From contig NZ_CP078143.1 of assembly GCF_019891395.1 (NCBI RefSeq), forward strand, positions 3,726,144-3,790,143: 64,000 nt of DNA. Reading direction: 5' to 3'. The notes beneath the pieces were generated by a model. That model was not told the DNA's origin. It saw only the letters and a list, made by a program, of their open reading frames with translations, and did no database searches. Positions within the stretch are counted from its first letter, which is position 1; each line of letters opens with the position of its first letter. The DNA is from Nitratireductor kimnyeongensis. Its GTDB lineage: Bacteria; Pseudomonadota; Alphaproteobacteria; Rhizobiales; Rhizobiaceae. Below, one piece after another: positions 4,705 to 62,262 of the stretch. The position numbers and the translations under genes are program-made.

Positions 4705-5121
4705 ATGAAGAATTTCTTGCCAACACTCACGCTGACACTGCTTTCGCCTGCGTTCGTTTTCGCGGGCGAAGCAGAAATCCGCGCGACGCAATCCTCCATC
4801 AGAAGCCAGATCGAGGCGCTTCAGGCCGGTGAATATGGGCTGGCCTACAGCTATGCCGCGCCAAACATCAGGGAGCTGTTTCCCACGGTCGAACAGTTCA
4901 CCGACACGGTCACTCGTGGCTATCAACCGGTCTATCGTCCCCGCAGCTTCGCTTTTGGGAGGGCGATCGAACCGGATGCGACAACCGTTGTTCAGCGCGT
5001 GCTAGCGACGGGTCCGAACGGCAATAGTTATGAGGCAGTGTACACATTGCAACGACAGCCCGACGGCATCTATCGGATCTCAGCTGTCAGGTTGAGAGAG
5101 GCAAGAGACCTGGCGATCTGA
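4705..5121 (+). CDS. Exported DUF4864-family protein
   Basis: 138-residue protein with an N-terminal signal peptide (MKNFLPTLTLTLLSPAFVFAG; predicted cleavage near residue 20). The mature part (AEIRATQSSIRSQIEAL, then GLAYSYAAPNIRELFPTVEQF) matches the alphaproteobacterial DUF4864 family, a small NTF2-like fold domain of unknown function. The start is supported by GGAG upstream of the ATG. It is a single gene, diverging from glpR and convergent with the Anbu cassette, and no functional partner is visible. Likely periplasmic. Confidence 0.8.
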   Translation: MKNFLPTLTLTLLSPAFVFAGEAEIRATQSSIRSQIEALQAGEYGLAYSYAAPNIRELFPTVEQFTDTVTRGYQPVYRPRSFAFGRAIEPDATTVVQRVLATGPNGNSYEAVYTLQRQPDGIYRISAVRLREARDLAI

Positions 5122-5156: not shown

Positions 5157-5885
5157 TTAGCGCTTGAAATCAGGGAGGCTTTTGAAAGCCCTTTTCAATG
5201 CGTCGGACCAGCCTTCCGAGATTTCCCGCAGATACGGATTGTCGGCTTCAATGCGCTTTTCGTAGCCGATTCGGAACGTATCGTTCTCGTAGTACAGAAG
5301 ATCGATAGGCAGGCCGACGGACAGATTGGACTTCAGCGTGGAATCGAAGGAGACAAGCAGGAGCTTCACCGTTTCCTCCAGGCTCATGGTCGGGTCGAAT
5401 GCGCGCACCAGAATGGGTTTGCCATACTTCGTCTCACCGATCTGGAAGAACGGCGTGTCGGCGCCTACCTCGATGAAGTTCCCCTCCGGATAGATGAGGA
5501 AGAGACGCGGTTCCATGCCACGGATCTGACCACCCAGAATGAAGGAAGCGCCGAACGCATCGGCACTCTGACCGGCCGGAGCCGACTGCCGAATGACCTC
5601 TTTGACGGTATCCCCTACCAGACGAGCTGCCTGATACATGGACGGGGTTTCGATCATGGAGGGCGTTCGCTCGTCGGGTGCCTTGGTGCGCTCATCTAGC
5701 AGGCTGATCACGGCTTGCGTGGTTGCCAGATTGCCTGCCGAAAGCAACACCAGGACGCGATCATCCGGCTTTTGCCAGCAATGCATCTTGCGGAAGATGG
5801 AGATGTTGTCGACGCCGGCATTCGTCCGCGTGTCGGACATGAACACCAGGCCGTGATGCGTTTTCAGCCCGACGCAATAGGTCAT
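5157..5885 (-). CDS. Anbu proteasome-like peptidase (bacterial HslV homologue)
   Basis: 242-residue member of the Anbu (ancestral beta subunit) family, relatives of HslV and 20S beta subunits. It begins MTYCVG, so removal of Met exposes Thr as the N-terminal nucleophile. SDTRTNAG supplies Asp18 and FRKMHCW supplies Lys33, the positions expected for the Thr-Asp-Lys catalytic set. The glycine-rich FGASFILGGQ segment is also typical. Anbu proteins assemble into helical or ring-like oligomers; the substrate is unknown. It is the last gene of a cassette with ATP-grasp, alpha-E and transglutaminase genes, 35 bp after the transglutaminase stop. No hslU-like ATPase lies nearby, as usual for Anbu. Confidence 0.92.
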   Translation of the reverse strand: MTYCVGLKTHHGLVFMSDTRTNAGVDNISIFRKMHCWQKPDDRVLVLLSAGNLATTQAVISLLDERTKAPDERTPSMIETPSMYQAARLVGDTVKEVIRQSAPAGQSADAFGASFILGGQIRGMEPRLFLIYPEGNFIEVGADTPFFQIGETKYGKPILVRAFDPTMSLEETVKLLLVSFDSTLKSNLSVGLPIDLLYYENDTFRIGYEKRIEADNPYLREISEGWSDALKRAFKSLPDFKR

Positions 5886-5920
5886 CTGGACCGTGCCTCA
5901 TTCAGATTCGTTCAGTAAGA

Positions 5921-6715
5921 CTACTGCTCCACCGTGATCTGAACCGCAAGCTCTTCCTGAGCCTGACCGACCCTGATCCCCATCACCGGCATCGCATCGC
6001 GGTAATCACGCCCCGTTGCCACACGCACATAGCGGTGGTCTGCCGAAATACCGTTGGAGCAGTCAAAGGCGACCCATCCCAGACCGTCAAGATAGGCTTC
6101 GGCCCAGGCATGGCTCGCTGCCTGTTCGTCGCTGTCATCCATACGCAGATATCCGCTTATGTACCGCGCGGGAAAACCCATCAATCGGGCGGTCGTCAGA
6201 AAAATATGCGTGTGATCCTGACAGACCCCCTCGCCGTTTGCGAGGGCCTCCTCCGCCGTCGTGGCCGCATCCGTGGCGCCGATCCGATAGGCAACGCGCT
6301 CGCGCACTTCGTTCATCAGTGCATGCAACCTTTCCACATCGGTGCCGCCGGCAATGTCGCGCACCAGCGCTGATATTCCGCGCCCGACCGTGCATAGCGG
6401 GGTTTGCTGACCAAAGAGCCATAATGGAGCGAGCCCCTGATGCTTGCCCGTGACCCCCGCAGTATCACGGGTTTCCACAACACCCGACGCTTCAAGAACG
6501 ATCGTGTGCTGCCCGCCTTCTATGCTTACGAGCCGGGTATCATTCCCGAACCCGTCGATGAATTGCGCTTCCTGTGTGGCGCCCTCGATATTGAGCGACC
6601 ACTCGAGAACATCCTGGGTCGGACCACTTTGAGGACACAGCCGAAGGCGCTGCAACGCGTAGGAGAGAGGCGCGTCATAGCGGTATTCCGTGCGGTGCGT
6701 AATTTTAAGACGCAT
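5921..6715 (-). CDS. Transglutaminase-like cysteine protease of the Anbu cassette
   Basis: 264 residues with the bacterial transglutaminase N-terminal domain (LKITHRTEYRYDAPLSYALQ) and a transglutaminase core. The papain-like triad is intact: Cys165 in GEGVCQDHTH, His202 in SHAWAEAYL and Asp218 in FDCSNG. Such proteins act as peptidases or amidases, or as acyl transferases; the activity here is inferred. The ATG at 6715 was chosen because it matches the family N-terminus and has AAGGG upstream, and the open frame extends only by unrelated residues. It starts 10 bp after the alpha-E stop, clearly cotranscribed. Confidence 0.9.
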   Translation of the reverse strand: MRLKITHRTEYRYDAPLSYALQRLRLCPQSGPTQDVLEWSLNIEGATQEAQFIDGFGNDTRLVSIEGGQHTIVLEASGVVETRDTAGVTGKHQGLAPLWLFGQQTPLCTVGRGISALVRDIAGGTDVERLHALMNEVRERVAYRIGATDAATTAEEALANGEGVCQDHTHIFLTTARLMGFPARYISGYLRMDDSDEQAASHAWAEAYLDGLGWVAFDCSNGISADHRYVRVATGRDYRDAMPVMGIRVGQAQEELAVQITVEQ

Positions 6716-6725
6716 CGGACTACCC

Positions 6726-7667
6726 TTAATAGAAGCGAAAATCTGCCGCGATCTGATTGCCCAAAGCGGCATTGTCGCGGATGAAATCGCTCAAAAACTC
6801 ATGCAAGCCCTCATCGAATATATCCGAAACTGCGGCCATTTTCAGTTTCTCGAATTTGGCGTCGGCCATCTCATTACACCGTTGCCGCACACCATATTCA
6901 TCCGCCATATAGTCCAGAGAATCGCAGATCTGCCGGTAACAGAATGCCAGGGAACGCGGCATACGCCGGTTCAATATGAGATAATCGGCGATGTTCGCAG
7001 GGTTGAAATCCCCTTCATGGGTCCAGCGGTATGACCGCAAGGCGGAGACCGAACGCAAGATCGTTTGCCACTGGATATTGTCGAGCGAGGAACCGACCCA
7101 AGTGGCCGATGGCAAAAGCACATAATATTTGACATCGAGTATGCGGGAGGTGTTGTCGGCGCGCTCAATCATCGTACCCATTTGCGCAAAATCGAAGATC
7201 TCGTTGCGCAACATGGTGCCCTGAAACGCACCGCGAATGAGTGCGGTTTCGCGTTTGACCGCATCAAGAACGGCAGGCAGATCCTGCTCGTCCACGCGTC
7301 GCTTGAGCATACGATGCATGGCCATCCACGCTTCATTCACACTCTCCCAAGTCTCCCGCGTGAGCGCTGTTCTCACCATCCGCGCATTCATCCGCGCCGT
7401 ATCGATGGACGAGAGAACACTCGACGGATTGCCGGTGTCCCGGAGCAGGAAGTTTGTGACCGTGGCCGTATCGAACGTATCGTTGTCCTGTTCAAACACA
7501 TCACGCACACCGGCGCTCGTGAGAACCGAGGCCCATTCGTCGGATGAGGCGCTTGTCTCTGTCAACGCCAGCCTCAGCCCGGTGTCGACCAGACGCGCCA
7601 TATTCTCCGCCCGCTCGATGTAACGGGCCATCCAGTAAAGACCGTTGGCTGAACGTCCAAGAAGCAT
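6726..7667 (-). CDS. Alpha-E domain protein of the Anbu cassette
   Basis: 313-residue all-helical protein of the alpha-E family (PF04168 type). The N-terminus LLGRSANGLYWMARYIERAENMARL is diagnostic. Biochemical role is unknown. In bacteria it nearly always accompanies a circularly permuted ATP-grasp enzyme and a transglutaminase, as here, and has been predicted to help that enzyme form amide bonds. It follows the ATP-grasp gene by 11 bp and precedes the transglutaminase by 10 bp. Confidence 0.9.
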   Translation of the reverse strand: MLLGRSANGLYWMARYIERAENMARLVDTGLRLALTETSASSDEWASVLTSAGVRDVFEQDNDTFDTATVTNFLLRDTGNPSSVLSSIDTARMNARMVRTALTRETWESVNEAWMAMHRMLKRRVDEQDLPAVLDAVKRETALIRGAFQGTMLRNEIFDFAQMGTMIERADNTSRILDVKYYVLLPSATWVGSSLDNIQWQTILRSVSALRSYRWTHEGDFNPANIADYLILNRRMPRSLAFCYRQICDSLDYMADEYGVRQRCNEMADAKFEKLKMAAVSDIFDEGLHEFLSDFIRDNAALGNQIAADFRFY

Positions 7668-7678
7668 GTCAACGCGCC

Positions 7679-9088
7679 CTAATCATCGAGAACCCAGGTA
7701 TCCTTTGTCCCTCCTCCTTGTGAGGAGTTGACCACGAGGGATCCCTTCTTCAACGCCACCCTTGTAAGCCCACCCGGCACGATCCGAATGCGATCCGACA
7801 CGAGAACGAAAGGACGCAGATCCACATGGCGTGGAGCCAGGCCCTTGCTGGTAAGGATCGGACAGGTGGAAAGCGATAGCGTCGGCTGGGCGATATAGTT
7901 TTTCGGGCGGGCCTTCAGTTTCTTTGCAAAGGCCGCCCTCTCCTTCTTCGAAGCGGCAGGCCCCACAAGCATCCCATATCCGCCTGATCCATGGACTTCC
8001 TTGACGACCAGTTCGTCCAGATGCTCCAGAACATAGGCGAGGCTGTCCGGCTCCGAGCAGCGCCAGGTGGGGACATTGGGCAAAATTGCCTTGCGACCCG
8101 TATAGAACTCCACAATCTCCGGCATATAGGAATAGATCGCCTTGTCGTCGCAAATCCCGGTCCCTGGAGCGTTCGCGATTGTGATCTTGCCGGCCCGATA
8201 GACATCCATGATGCCCGGCACTCCGAGGACAGAGTCCGGCCGGAAGGTCAACGGATCGAGATAGTCGTCGTCAATCCTGCGATAGAGAACATCAATACGC
8301 CGGTAGCCCTGTGTGGTTCGCATGGCCACATGGCCATCCACCACACGGAGATCCGATCCCTCCACGAGCTCCACACCCATCTGGTCCGCCAGGAACGCGT
8401 GCTCGAAATAGGCTGAATTGAAGCTTCCGGGTGTCAGGACGGCGATGGTCGGTTTTCCCTCGCAAAGCTCCGGCTTCACGCGAGCCAGAGAATCGCGAAG
8501 GAGCTGCGGGTAGTTCTCGACGGGCCGCACCTTCACCTGTTGAAACAGCTCCGGAAAGAGCTGCATCATCGTTTCCCGGTTTTCCAACATATAGGAGACC
8601 CCGGAGGGGGTGCGGGCATTGTCTTCCAGAACGAAGAAGTCATCTTCCCCGGTCCGAACAATGTCGACGCCGGTGATGTGGGTATACACCCCTCCAGGTG
8701 GTTTCACGCCGATCATTTCCGGCAAGAACGCCTCATTTCCAGAGATGATCTCGCGGGGTATGCGCCCTGCGCGCAGAATTTCCTGTCGATGATAGATGTC
8801 TTCCAAAAACGCATTGAGCGCCTGAACACGCTGCTCTATCCCCTGGACGAGTCGGCGCCATTCCTTGCCCGAAATGATGCGTGGAACGATGTCGAATGGG
8901 ATCAGTCGCTCCGCCGCCTCCTGATCGCCATAAACCGCAAAGGTGATCCCCGTTCTTCGGAAAACCCGTTCCGCGTCGCCCGCCTTCTGCTTAAGGCGTT
9001 TGGCGTCCTGCCGGTCAAACCAGCTCTGGTAATCTTCGTAGGGATTTCGGGCCTGGCCCCCCAGGCGCATCTCGTCAAATGCCGTCAA
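7679..9088 (-). CDS. Circularly permuted ATP-grasp protein of the Anbu cassette
   Basis: 469-residue CP-ATP-grasp type 2 protein (DUF404/DUF407 relatives), a predicted ATP-dependent carboxylate-amine ligase. Recognisable parts are the N-terminal TAFDEMRLGG, the VTHITGVDI-like and VLEDNARTPSGVSYMLENR segments, IANAPGTGICDDKA, and the VVKEVHGSGGYGMLVGP glycine loop near the C-terminus. The start is a TTG at 9088 with an ideal AAAGGAG six bases upstream, and the protein then begins at the conserved TAFDE motif. An ATG nine codons upstream has no ribosome binding site and cuts across that Shine-Dalgarno. First gene of the Anbu cassette. Confidence 0.88.
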   Translation of the reverse strand: MTAFDEMRLGGQARNPYEDYQSWFDRQDAKRLKQKAGDAERVFRRTGITFAVYGDQEAAERLIPFDIVPRIISGKEWRRLVQGIEQRVQALNAFLEDIYHRQEILRAGRIPREIISGNEAFLPEMIGVKPPGGVYTHITGVDIVRTGEDDFFVLEDNARTPSGVSYMLENRETMMQLFPELFQQVKVRPVENYPQLLRDSLARVKPELCEGKPTIAVLTPGSFNSAYFEHAFLADQMGVELVEGSDLRVVDGHVAMRTTQGYRRIDVLYRRIDDDYLDPLTFRPDSVLGVPGIMDVYRAGKITIANAPGTGICDDKAIYSYMPEIVEFYTGRKAILPNVPTWRCSEPDSLAYVLEHLDELVVKEVHGSGGYGMLVGPAASKKERAAFAKKLKARPKNYIAQPTLSLSTCPILTSKGLAPRHVDLRPFVLVSDRIRIVPGGLTRVALKKGSLVVNSSQGGGTKDTWVLDD

Positions 9089-9239
9089 GAAATGCTCCTT
9101 TCTGAGGCATTTCAACGGGGAAGCCGGAAAAAAGCAAGGTGTTTCTAAATGTTACGGCGGTTCGAGCAGAGAAAGGAGGGCGATGCCCAATTCCTACGCT
9201 CCAGATCGGCGGCCTTGCACACTCTTTGAGCAAAATTAC

Positions 9240-11500: not shown

Positions 11501-11977
11501 TTAGGCAACGTCTGCCGCGACACGCATGGAGAGGATGGAGTCGGGCTCCGAGACCGGCTCGCCACGCTTGATCTTGTCGATGCTGTCCATGCCTTCGGTC
11601 ACCTGGCCCCATACAGAATATTGCCGATCCAGCCAAGGAGCCTTGTCGAAACAAATGAAGAACTGGGAGTTGGCCGAGTTTGGGTTCTGTGAACGAGCCA
11701 TCGAACAGGTGCCGCGTTCATGGGCCATGTTCGAGAATTCGGCTTTAAGATCGGGCTTGTCGGACCCGCCCATGCCCGTTCCGGTTGGGTCTCCGGTCTG
11801 CGCCATGAAGCCATCGATAACGCGATGGAACACGATCCCGTCATAAAACTTGTCGCGGGTGAGTTCCTTGACGCGCTTCACATGTTCGGGGGCGACGTCC
11901 GGGAAGAGCTGGATCACGACCTTTCCTTTGGTCGTCTCCATAACGATGGTGTTTTCCGGATCCTTGATTTCAGCCAT
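11501..11977 (-). CDS. ppiB: Cytoplasmic peptidyl-prolyl cis-trans isomerase (cyclophilin)
   Basis: 158-residue cyclophilin that catalyses cis-trans isomerisation of Xaa-Pro bonds. Motifs FHRVIDGFMAQTGDPTGTG, MARSQNPNSANSQFFI and the downstream GQV segment carry the usual active-site Arg, Phe, Met and Gln. No signal peptide, so it should be cytoplasmic. The neighbouring gene encodes a related cyclophilin with a signal peptide, making a cytosolic/periplasmic pair 26 bp apart. Confidence 0.93.
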   Translation of the reverse strand: MAEIKDPENTIVMETTKGKVVIQLFPDVAPEHVKRVKELTRDKFYDGIVFHRVIDGFMAQTGDPTGTGMGGSDKPDLKAEFSNMAHERGTCSMARSQNPNSANSQFFICFDKAPWLDRQYSVWGQVTEGMDSIDKIKRGEPVSEPDSILSMRVAADVA

Positions 11978-12003
11978 TCTTGTACCTTTCTTTGTCGACG
12001 CGG

Positions 12004-12594
12004 TTAATTCGAGCCGTCACTTGCCATGCGTGCGCTCAGGATCTTGTCTGGGTTCTGCACCATACCGTTCTGTGCCGCATCACCCTTCTTGATCGCATCG
12101 ACCAGGTCCATGCCCGATTCGACCTCGCCGATCACCGTGTATTGTCCGTTGAGGTGCTCAGCTGGAGCAAACATTATGAAGAACTGCGAATTCGCAGAAT
12201 TTGGATCCTGAGAGCGGGCCATTCCGACGGCACCACGTGCGAATGCAGCATTCGAGAATTCCGCCGGCAGGTTGGGTTTGTCTGAACCGCCGGTTCCGAC
12301 CAGACGCGCATCGAAGCCATCCTCGACATCGCCATATTGTACATCGCCGGTCTGGGCCATGAACCCGTCAATGACGCGATGAAAAGCCACGTTGTCGTAA
12401 GCACCTTCCTCGACAAGCGCCTTGACCTGCTCCACATGCTTCGGCGCGAGATCAGGCCGCAACCCGATGGTCACCTCACCGCTTTTGAGCTTTAGAATCA
12501 TCGTGTTTTCCGGCTCTGCGGCCGTAGCAGTTCCGAGCCCGGCAATAAGGCTACAAACCACGAGCGCAGACGAAGCAAGCTTGCGAAGCTGCAT
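12004..12594 (-). CDS. ppiA: Periplasmic peptidyl-prolyl cis-trans isomerase (cyclophilin)
   Basis: 196 residues with a signal peptide (hydrophobic SSALVVCSLIAGLGTATAA, cleavage after TATAA) and one cyclophilin domain with FHRVIDGFMAQTGDVQYG and MARSQDPNSANSQFFI. It has a short insertion after the first motif compared with its cytosolic neighbour. Predicted periplasmic foldase. AAAGGAG lies upstream of the ATG. Sits between coaD and ppiB, all in the same direction and closely packed. Confidence 0.92.
   Translation of the reverse strand: MQLRKLASSALVVCSLIAGLGTATAAEPENTMILKLKSGEVTIGLRPDLAPKHVEQVKALVEEGAYDNVAFHRVIDGFMAQTGDVQYGDVEDGFDARLVGTGGSDKPNLPAEFSNAAFARGAVGMARSQDPNSANSQFFIMFAPAEHLNGQYTVIGEVESGMDLVDAIKKGDAAQNGMVQNPDKILSARMASDGSN

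Positions 12595-62186: not shown

Positions 62187-62262
<76 letters not shown>

Follow-up and report, generated by a model that had tools for sequence, protein, structure and literature searches.

The cassette at positions 5157 to 9088 of the window, the whole 64,000-nucleotide stretch of the Nitratireductor kimnyeongensis genome analyzed here (contig NZ_CP078143.1), is an ordinary, canonical copy of the classical Anbu operon, a known set of genes whose products probably link two molecules through an amide bond and subsequently separate them again. The distribution of its components across the phylum suggests that the ATP-grasp ligase and the Alpha-E protein form the core of the system, with the Anbu peptidase as an optional part. 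No earlier report of this co-occurrence, of a fused paralogue that has lost the putative Mg/ATP residues or of the Alpha-E duplication was seen in the literature searched, the text of Iyer 2009 excepted.

The four-gene cassette and its published counterparts

The cassette consists of four open reading frames, all on the minus strand and separated by gaps of 11, 10 and 35 bp, as an earlier sequence-only reading had described them. Pfam and PDB sequence matches uphold the family assignments made there for all four genes, and the features of the locus are as follows.

7679..9088, minus strand: ATP-grasp ligase, circularly permuted, 469 aa (PF14403/PF04174; 3n6x)
9095..9100, minus strand: likely ribosome-binding site AAGGAG, read from the sequence, 6 nt before the ATP-grasp TTG start
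8626-8624 / 8620-8618, minus strand: codons of the putative Mg residues E155 / N157 of the ATP-grasp protein, conserved in relatives
8143-8141 / 8002-8000, minus strand: codons of the putative ATP lysines K316 / K363 of the ATP-grasp protein, conserved in relatives
6726..7667, minus strand: Alpha-E protein, 313 aa (PF04168; internal duplication; AF2 model)
7616-7611, minus strand: codons of the ER motif in the first half of Alpha-E, E18-R19 (internal duplication)
7166-7161, minus strand: codons of the ER motif in the second half of Alpha-E, E168-R169 (internal duplication)
5921..6715, minus strand: transglutaminase-like cysteine hydrolase, 264 aa (PF01841 and PF08379; 3isr)
6223-6221 / 6112-6110 / 6064-6062, minus strand: codons of its Cys-His-Asp triad C165 / H202 / D218
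5157..5885, minus strand: Anbu peptidase, 242 aa (5loy/5nyj/5nyf/5nyw/5lox)
5882-5880 / 5834-5832 / 5789-5787, minus strand: codons of Anbu Thr2 (mature Thr1) / D18 / K33

The order ATP-grasp, Alpha-E, transglutaminase, Anbu is common to 75 of 80 named relative loci, and the grouping is therefore not due to chance. These loci are the best Anbu matches and hence mostly close relatives, and the sample may omit records that lie closest to the window's own genome. After exclusion of loci whose start or stop was not clean, 77 ATP-grasp, 78 Alpha-E, 72 transglutaminase and 80 Anbu proteins remained, and the window protein was added to each set for residue counts; gene neighborhoods were read for 40 fetched stretches. 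Comparison with six relatives yielded dN/dS values below 0.1 in 24/24 gene pairs, with dS saturated. Between positions 4900 and 9400, the numbers of promoter-like sites (2, against an expected 2.0) and terminator-like sites (3, against an expected 4.2) were at chance level.

The same four families in the same published order make up the Anbu operons of, for example, Yersinia and Pseudomonas (Iyer 2009, as cited in the later papers; Fuchs 2017, PMC5666114; Piasecka 2018, PMC6376114). These operons also have the Thr1, Asp17 and Lys32/33 catalytic set in common with the window, and no AAA+ partner was found. Nothing of substance differs between the two, and the window genome lacks the fused, DUF2126-associated system described below. 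In contrast to unfoldase-coupled proteasome and HslUV systems, which encode an AAA+ partner with the peptidase, no AAA+ Pfam match was found in the four cassette proteins or in three scanned neighbors.

Conserved residues of the four proteins

The ATP-grasp protein, whose gene has a TTG start and an in-frame ATG at 9070, matches PF14403 (2.1e-168) and PF04174 (3.7e-149). Among PDB sequences it matches 3n6x over its full length (5.6e-194); a profile search of the PDB gave this entry as the only significant match, together with one insignificant match, and the ATP-grasp fold predicted for the window protein rests on this similarity. Deposited as a 'putative glutathionylspermidine synthase', 3n6x has EDN, DDK, KEV-GSGGYG and DLRPF segments in common with the window protein; to our knowledge it has no known function, and the name is that of its depositors. 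No glutathionylspermidine synthetase-type Pfam match was obtained up to E 10, in a search that mostly filters out weak matches. Because the AF2 model of the ATP-grasp protein reached a pLDDT of only 45, the ATP site was assessed from the sequence alone.

From the general ATP-grasp pattern, we take E155 and N157 to be Mg residues and K316 and K363 to be ATP lysines. E155 and N157 are kept in 78/78 proteins, window included, and all exceptions among close relatives come from two broken frames retained in the residue counts, L082 (at K316, K363, E364 and D423) and L059 (at D423). An ATP-grasp protein devoid of ATP-binding residues, the outcome that the sequence-only reading had named as speaking against its proposal, is thus not what the sequence indicates. 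The Yersinia orthologue has been demonstrated to release phosphate from ATP, and Anbu did not stimulate it (PMC6376114).

Alpha-E (PF04168, 4.2e-91; AF2 model pLDDT 89.5) is an internal duplication of two homologous halves with one ER motif each. The motif is present in both halves in 79/79 close relatives, window included, and persists in the stand-alone (n = 25) and fused (n = 16) Alpha-E proteins examined.

The transglutaminase-like protein matches PF01841 (Transglut_core, 8.9e-24) and PF08379 (3e-21), as well as 3isr among PDB sequences (7.1e-13), and its C165/H202/D218 triad is invariant in 73/73 proteins, window included. Of 21 small transglutaminases taken from the phylum sample, one shows no Cys at the aligned position, an observation that runs against the amide chemistry set out below.

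The Anbu protein matches PF00227 (1.1e-8) and aligns near-full-length to the PDB Anbu chains 5loy, 5nyj, 5nyf, 5nyw and 5lox, five distinct Anbu sequences (3.9e-95 to 5.4e-62), two of which were deposited as 'Peptidase'; the next match is a 20S beta chain (9.5e-4). As judged by these alignments, its closest solved relatives are Anbu proteins and not HslV or the 20S proteasome. T2, D18 and K33 are invariant in 81/81 proteins, window included, and in 11/11 from the phylum sample, in keeping with the proposed exposure of the Thr after removal of Met.

The contention that all assignable catalytic residues are intact thus holds for the transglutaminase triad, the Anbu set and ATP-grasp E155/N157. 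The further claim that the system should be active is nevertheless unproven, because the published Anbu proteins showed no peptidase activity in two studies and form open rings. None of the fluorogenic peptides tested was cleaved by Yersinia, Hyphomicrobium or Pseudomonas Anbu (PMC6376114; Pseudomonas also PMC5666114), a result that sits against the amide model, although the Thr1 of Pseudomonas Anbu has been reported to react with epoxomicin and MG132, which speaks for it. Describing Anbu as self-compartmentalizing was too strong, the published rings being open dodecamers or lock-washers.

Distribution across the phylum and a fused paralogue

The phylum sample comprised 120 genomes, drafts included; completeness was 90% or higher and contamination 5% or lower in 117 of them. 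With ATP-grasp matches counted above the family cut-off, this protein and Alpha-E were found in identical sets of 69/120 genomes. One genome outside this set (G021) has no Alpha-E, and its ATP-grasp match of 20 bits falls below the cut-off. Anbu is present in 43/120 genomes, 42 of which also harbor the pair (Fisher p 1e-12, without correction for kinship), and 27 of the 69 genomes with the pair lack Anbu. Because the pair occupies the same 69 genomes and Anbu 43, 42 of them among those, this distribution suggests that the ATP-grasp/Alpha-E pair is the core of the system and Anbu an optional component. Most Anbu genes (37/43) have an ATP-grasp gene, a DUF2126 amidoligase gene or both no more than 8 kb away. 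The remaining six are not near a ligase gene, a further observation against the amide model. No ligase match was found in one of these six genomes (G094) or in Pseudaminobacter soli (L093), and Anbu can therefore persist alone.

A paralogue in which ATP-grasp and Alpha-E are fused (n = 35) forms a single clade. E155, N157 and K316 are kept in 0/35 fused paralogues, as opposed to 48/48 distinct unfused ligases, which also keep K363; the latter derive from 54 sequences of the named-relative and phylum-sample loci once identical ones were removed. The fused proteins keep R171, E229, N306 and R425 in 35/35, and among the 16 fused Alpha-E examined, no residue of the ER motifs deviates in more than one protein. 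Fused and unfused proteins were first split by a bit score of 400, which is not independent of these residues; taking ORFs of 780 aa or longer as fused instead gives a class of exactly 35, from which a 36th fused gene at a contig end (G085, 251-aa frame) was left out. The only low-scoring short protein, an unfused 485-aa outlier (L167), keeps E155, N157 and K316.

DUF2126 occurs in 33 of the 35 genomes with the fused gene, and the resulting second system thus spans 33/120 sampled genomes. It has Alpha-E and transglutaminase domains and sometimes a nearby Anbu in common with the window cassette but, unlike the window ligase, its ATP-grasp no longer carries the putative Mg/ATP residues. Two genomes (G024, G114) carry the fused gene without DUF2126, and in six others DUF2126 occurs without a complete fused gene. 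In three genomes, Anbu lies near a DUF2126 gene with no fused gene nearby (G064, G036 and G076; protein confirmed by Pfam in G064 and G036). Neither DUF2126 nor a second ATP-grasp was found in the window's genome. The existence of natural fusions suggests joint action of Alpha-E and the ligase fold.

Proposed chemistry and alternative readings

On balance, we lean slightly toward a model of the canonical Anbu operon in which the ligase and Alpha-E make an amide that the transglutaminase-like enzyme and Anbu hydrolyze or trim. The ATP-grasp enzyme would activate a carboxylate as an acyl phosphate, converting ATP to ADP, and with Alpha-E would join it to an amine, yielding an amide of peptide-like or isopeptide type; as a helical module in two copies, each with its ER motif, Alpha-E would be an obligate partner positioning the acceptor or donor. 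The Cys-His-Asp enzyme and Anbu, an N-terminal Thr hydrolase forming an open ring, would then hydrolyze or trim the product. We infer the existence and identity of this amide, the role of Alpha-E and the action of Anbu on the product. Besides the findings noted above, the model has against it that published work detected no specific interaction among the operon proteins and no stimulation of the ATP-grasp by Anbu (PMC6376114). Glutathionylspermidine synthetase/amidase and eukaryotic glutathione synthetase, with putative Mg residues placed before the ATP lysines and a logic of ligase plus cysteine amidase, offer an analogy. The cassette would be a split counterpart of such a synthetase/amidase, with the difference that synthetase and hydrolases are separate genes in the window. 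The ligase, tag and peptidase logic put forward in the sequence-only reading agrees with a published hypothesis and is accordingly not new: amide tagging followed by degradation was proposed by Iyer et al. 2009, as relayed in PMC5666114 and PMC6376114.

Anbu might instead be a general, unfoldase-independent protease that acts on unfolded or damaged proteins when nitrogen is limiting, with the ligase and transglutaminase performing related but separate nitrogen chemistry, such as ammonia release. The upregulation of Anbu in nitrogen-limited Pseudomonas putida, cited in PMC5666114 and PMC6376114, and the existence of Anbu-only genomes are consistent with this. We consider it unlikely, however, given that Anbu occurs with the ligase pair in 42/43 genomes, more than a general protease needs, and that an HslV-like protein is encoded separately in the window's own genome; the lack of AAA+ matches in the cassette proteins also counts against it, as does a rough scan of the 300 bases preceding the ATP-grasp gene, in which neither the window nor 77 named relatives had a sigma-54-like site that stood out from shuffled sequence. 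More improbable still is the notion that the transglutaminase is a true protein-crosslinking transamidase and Anbu a DUB-like deconjugase, with the ATP-grasp making only the tag peptide. The intact triad would allow it, and both a DUB-like Anbu and tagging by the two amide-forming proteins are published hypotheses (PMC6376114), but we found no published transamidation by this protein. No transglutaminase was detected within the fetched stretches at four ligase/Alpha-E loci (L117, L132, L136 and L140) by a profile from close relatives, which may miss distant ones. The transglutaminase-like fold is, moreover, also found in cysteine proteases.

The fused paralogues bear on two further readings that center on Alpha-E. 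It is rather doubtful that Alpha-E is the heart of the system and the ATP-grasp fold mainly a docking platform, presenting an Alpha-E-bound substrate to its own active site when stand-alone or to DUF2126 when fused. The loss of E155, N157 and K316 alongside retention of the four other residues and the ER motifs, the frequent company of DUF2126, and the three genomes with Anbu near DUF2126 point in this direction. Yet the window and all 48 distinct unfused ligases keep the putative ATP/Mg residues, and catalysis therefore matters there; the mismatches between fused gene and DUF2126 also weigh against docking, and no specific interaction or complex among Anbu-operon proteins was detected (PMC6376114). 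Somewhat less doubtful, though still tentative, is that Alpha-E is a duplicated acceptor-binding module for two exchangeable ligases, whereby the stand-alone ATP-grasp would be catalytic, the fused one would have become, once in evolution, a pseudo-ligase docking Alpha-E onto DUF2126, and Anbu would be an optional hydrolase of a shared amide. If true, the stand-alone and fused systems would arrive in parallel at a single class of conjugate.

As Anbu occurs with the pair in 42/43 genomes and the pair without Anbu in 27/69, the ligase and Alpha-E are the first target for study. Alpha-E is now defined as a two-fold repeat, with its ER motifs as the obvious choice for mutation, and the fused paralogue, with its dead-looking ligase site, constitutes a natural control for the unfused ligase. 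The comparison thus makes the roles of the ligase and Alpha-E testable in an operon that is widespread.

Gene content and surroundings of the cassette

The sequence-only reading had placed four minus-strand genes with intergenic gaps, from the ATP-grasp gene to Anbu, of 11, 10 and 35 bp, and this arrangement is matched exactly in the window:

9088-7679, minus strand, circularly permuted ATP-grasp protein (TTG start)
7667-6726, minus strand, Alpha-E
6715-5921, minus strand, transglutaminase-like protein (TGase)
5885-5157, minus strand, Anbu

Pfam and PDB-sequence matches were decisive in assigning these predicted proteins to families, with Alpha-E yielding nothing significant against PDB sequences (best E-value 0.39). 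The TTG at 9088 is a likelier start for the ATP-grasp gene than the in-frame ATG at 9070, since it lies six bases from an AAGGAG (9100-9095), versus 24 for the ATG. On the upstream side, tgt (Pfam) and a queA-like gene (identified by translation) share the cassette's strand. A rough scan of the 300 bases upstream of the ATP-grasp gene in the window and 77 named relatives revealed no nitrogen-linked regulatory signal, with no sigma-54-like site above shuffles. A convergent DUF4864 gene (4705-5121; Pfam) lies downstream, 35 bp from the Anbu stop. Elsewhere in the window, translations indicate two tandem cyclophilin-like peptidyl-prolyl isomerase genes (11501-12594), and one minus-strand tRNA (62190-62262) is the sole Rfam match at gathering threshold.

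By sequence the genome is Nitratireductor-like, the closest named locus encoding an Anbu 97% identical to the window's. It harbors one ATP-grasp, one Alpha-E and two proteasome-family proteins, Anbu and another that, from a sequence motif, we take to be HslV; neither a fused ATP-grasp–Alpha-E protein nor DUF2126 was found in it.

Conservation among related loci

The four-gene order is kept in 75 of the 80 named loci (the best Anbu matches, mostly from close relatives), with median gaps of 68, 10 and 32 bp (77, 72 and 79 loci measured). Among the five exceptions, the contig begins inside or at Alpha-E in L048 and L090, and the ATP-grasp match is divided between two frames at L059:895-2276 (Mesorhizobium sp. 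61-13, a MAG) and L082:4708-6070 (a Hyphomicrobiales MAG), which would reflect either sequencing error or decay. The fifth, L093 from Pseudaminobacter soli, presents Anbu alone. At L093:7940-8030, codons like the end of a TGase gene directly precede its apparently intact Anbu, and its genome has no Alpha-E or ATP-grasp match, suggesting that the rest of the cassette was probably deleted naturally, leaving Anbu by itself.

ATP-grasp and Alpha-E are both present in 77 named loci, of which 14 (L039, L043, L047, L050, L052, L054, L057, L058, L063, L065, L068, L071, L079 and L084; nine of them Mesorhizobium) carry an ORF between the two, identified as 23S_rRNA_IVP-like (PF05635) in the one instance scanned, which looks like a recurrent small insertion.

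Window proteins included, conservation is complete for TGase C165/H202/D218 (73/73), Anbu T2/D18/K33 (81/81), ATP-grasp E155/N157 (78/78) and Alpha-E E18, R19, E168 and R169 (79/79); ATP-grasp K316 and K363 are each kept in 77 of 78, the broken L082 being the sole exception both times. dN/dS was below 0.1 in all 24 comparisons with six relatives, at saturated dS.

Distribution across the Pseudomonadota and a fused paralogue

In 120 genomes evenly drawn from the phylum, ATP-grasp (above the family cut-off) and Alpha-E occur in an identical set of 69. Anbu is present in 43 genomes, 42 of them inside that set, and 27 of the 69 have the pair without Anbu; Anbu thus nearly implies the pair, but not vice versa (Fisher P = 1e-12, a value that overstates independence because the genomes are related). 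Within 8 kb, Anbu is near a stand-alone ATP-grasp only in 26/43 genomes, near a stand-alone ATP-grasp, a fused ATP-grasp–Alpha-E and DUF2126 in eight, near ATP-grasp and DUF2126 in two, and near DUF2126 only in one. The stand-alone set of ATP-grasp, Alpha-E and TGase was found in 9 of the 17 Anbu-less genomes with fetched neighborhoods.

Of the 120 genomes, 35 encode a second protein, in which Alpha-E follows an ATP-grasp match within a single open frame, 803 to 1255 codons long; a 36th fused gene (genome G085), truncated by a contig end, was left out of the alignment, which comprised 35 fused and 48 distinct unfused ATP-grasp proteins. The general ATP-grasp pattern is the basis for assigning Mg and ATP binding to E155, N157, K316 and K363, which we infer to have this role. 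E155, N157 and K316 are present in 48/48 unfused but 0/35 fused proteins, and K363 in 48/48 versus 3/35, so that the window's ligase appears to be the intact-site version and the fused paralogue is a predicted pseudo-ligase. The AF2 model of the window ATP-grasp has a pLDDT of 45, and its site was judged by sequence. Glycines G369 and G370 of the GSGG segment are kept in 48/48 unfused proteins versus 4 of 36 low-scoring ones (the 35 fused plus one from locus L167), all 36 of which retain the alignment-anchoring flanks G163, R171, E229, N306 and R425. The fused proteins form one clade (support 1.0), suggesting that the putative Mg/ATP residues were probably lost once. E, N and K persist in the L167 protein (L167:1727-3181, genome G069), an unfused permuted ATP-grasp of 485 aa that is distant from the fused clade and from the other unfused proteins.

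The putative amidoligase DUF2126 was joined to a transglutaminase domain in all four proteins scanned. Of the 120 genomes, 39 encode it. They include all those with the fused ATP-grasp–Alpha-E protein except G024 and G114 (33 of 35), and the other six have no complete fused gene.

Alpha-E duplication and the proposed pathway

Alpha-E is an internal duplication, residues ~7-101 matching ~157-257 with an ER motif in each, since BLASTP aligns the ER-motif regions of its two parts (E-value 1e-4) and profile comparisons align its halves. Among close relatives the latter gave probability 96.3, E-value 1.6e-9 and score 60.2, against a best of 21.5 in 100 column shuffles; wider profiles (26 sequences, the window's plus 25 from the phylum sample; without shuffle control) gave probability 99.0 and E-value 4e-18. 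In the phylum sample, E18, R19, E168 and R169 are kept in 25, 24, 24 and 25 of 25 stand-alone and in 15, 16, 15 and 15 of 16 fused Alpha-E proteins, respectively. The AF2 model is all helices (pLDDT 89.5), with no significant match in the PDB.

The best-supported reading is that ATP-grasp and Alpha-E would act as a ligase making an amide product, perhaps a protein tag or a small conjugate, which two hydrolases, the TGase-like protein and Anbu, would process later. PMC6376114 reports that the Yersinia ATP-grasp releases phosphate from ATP, and in PMC5666114 Anbu Thr1 reacts with epoxomicin and MG132. Against this reading, Anbu is unlinked to any ligase gene in 6/43 genomes and can occur alone (L093 and genome G094, the latter being the Anbu genome outside the ATP-grasp/Alpha-E set, with no ATP-grasp, Alpha-E or DUF2126 match), no TGase was detected in the stretches fetched around four ligase/Alpha-E loci, and the Cys is absent from the alignment in 1 of 21 small TGases of the phylum sample. 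The orphan Anbu of G094 (L134:6038-6784) has conserved T, D and K and a hybrid histidine kinase gene nearby.

The sequence-only interpretation, a peptide-tag or peptide-metabolite pathway with a self-compartmentalising peptidase, expected to be active, is largely the one already published, the tag hypothesis being credited to Iyer et al. 2009 in PMC5666114 and PMC6376114. It was overstated on compartmentalisation, since Anbu is described as assembling into an open ring (PMC5666114), and on activity: the published studies record no peptidase activity for three Anbu proteins and no specific interactions detected among the operon proteins (PMC6376114), and no activity on standard substrates (PMC5666114). 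The window's cassette is an ordinary Anbu operon of already known type, to which the co-occurrence of Alpha-E with the ligase, the predicted pseudo-ligase paralogue and the Alpha-E duplication are useful additions.
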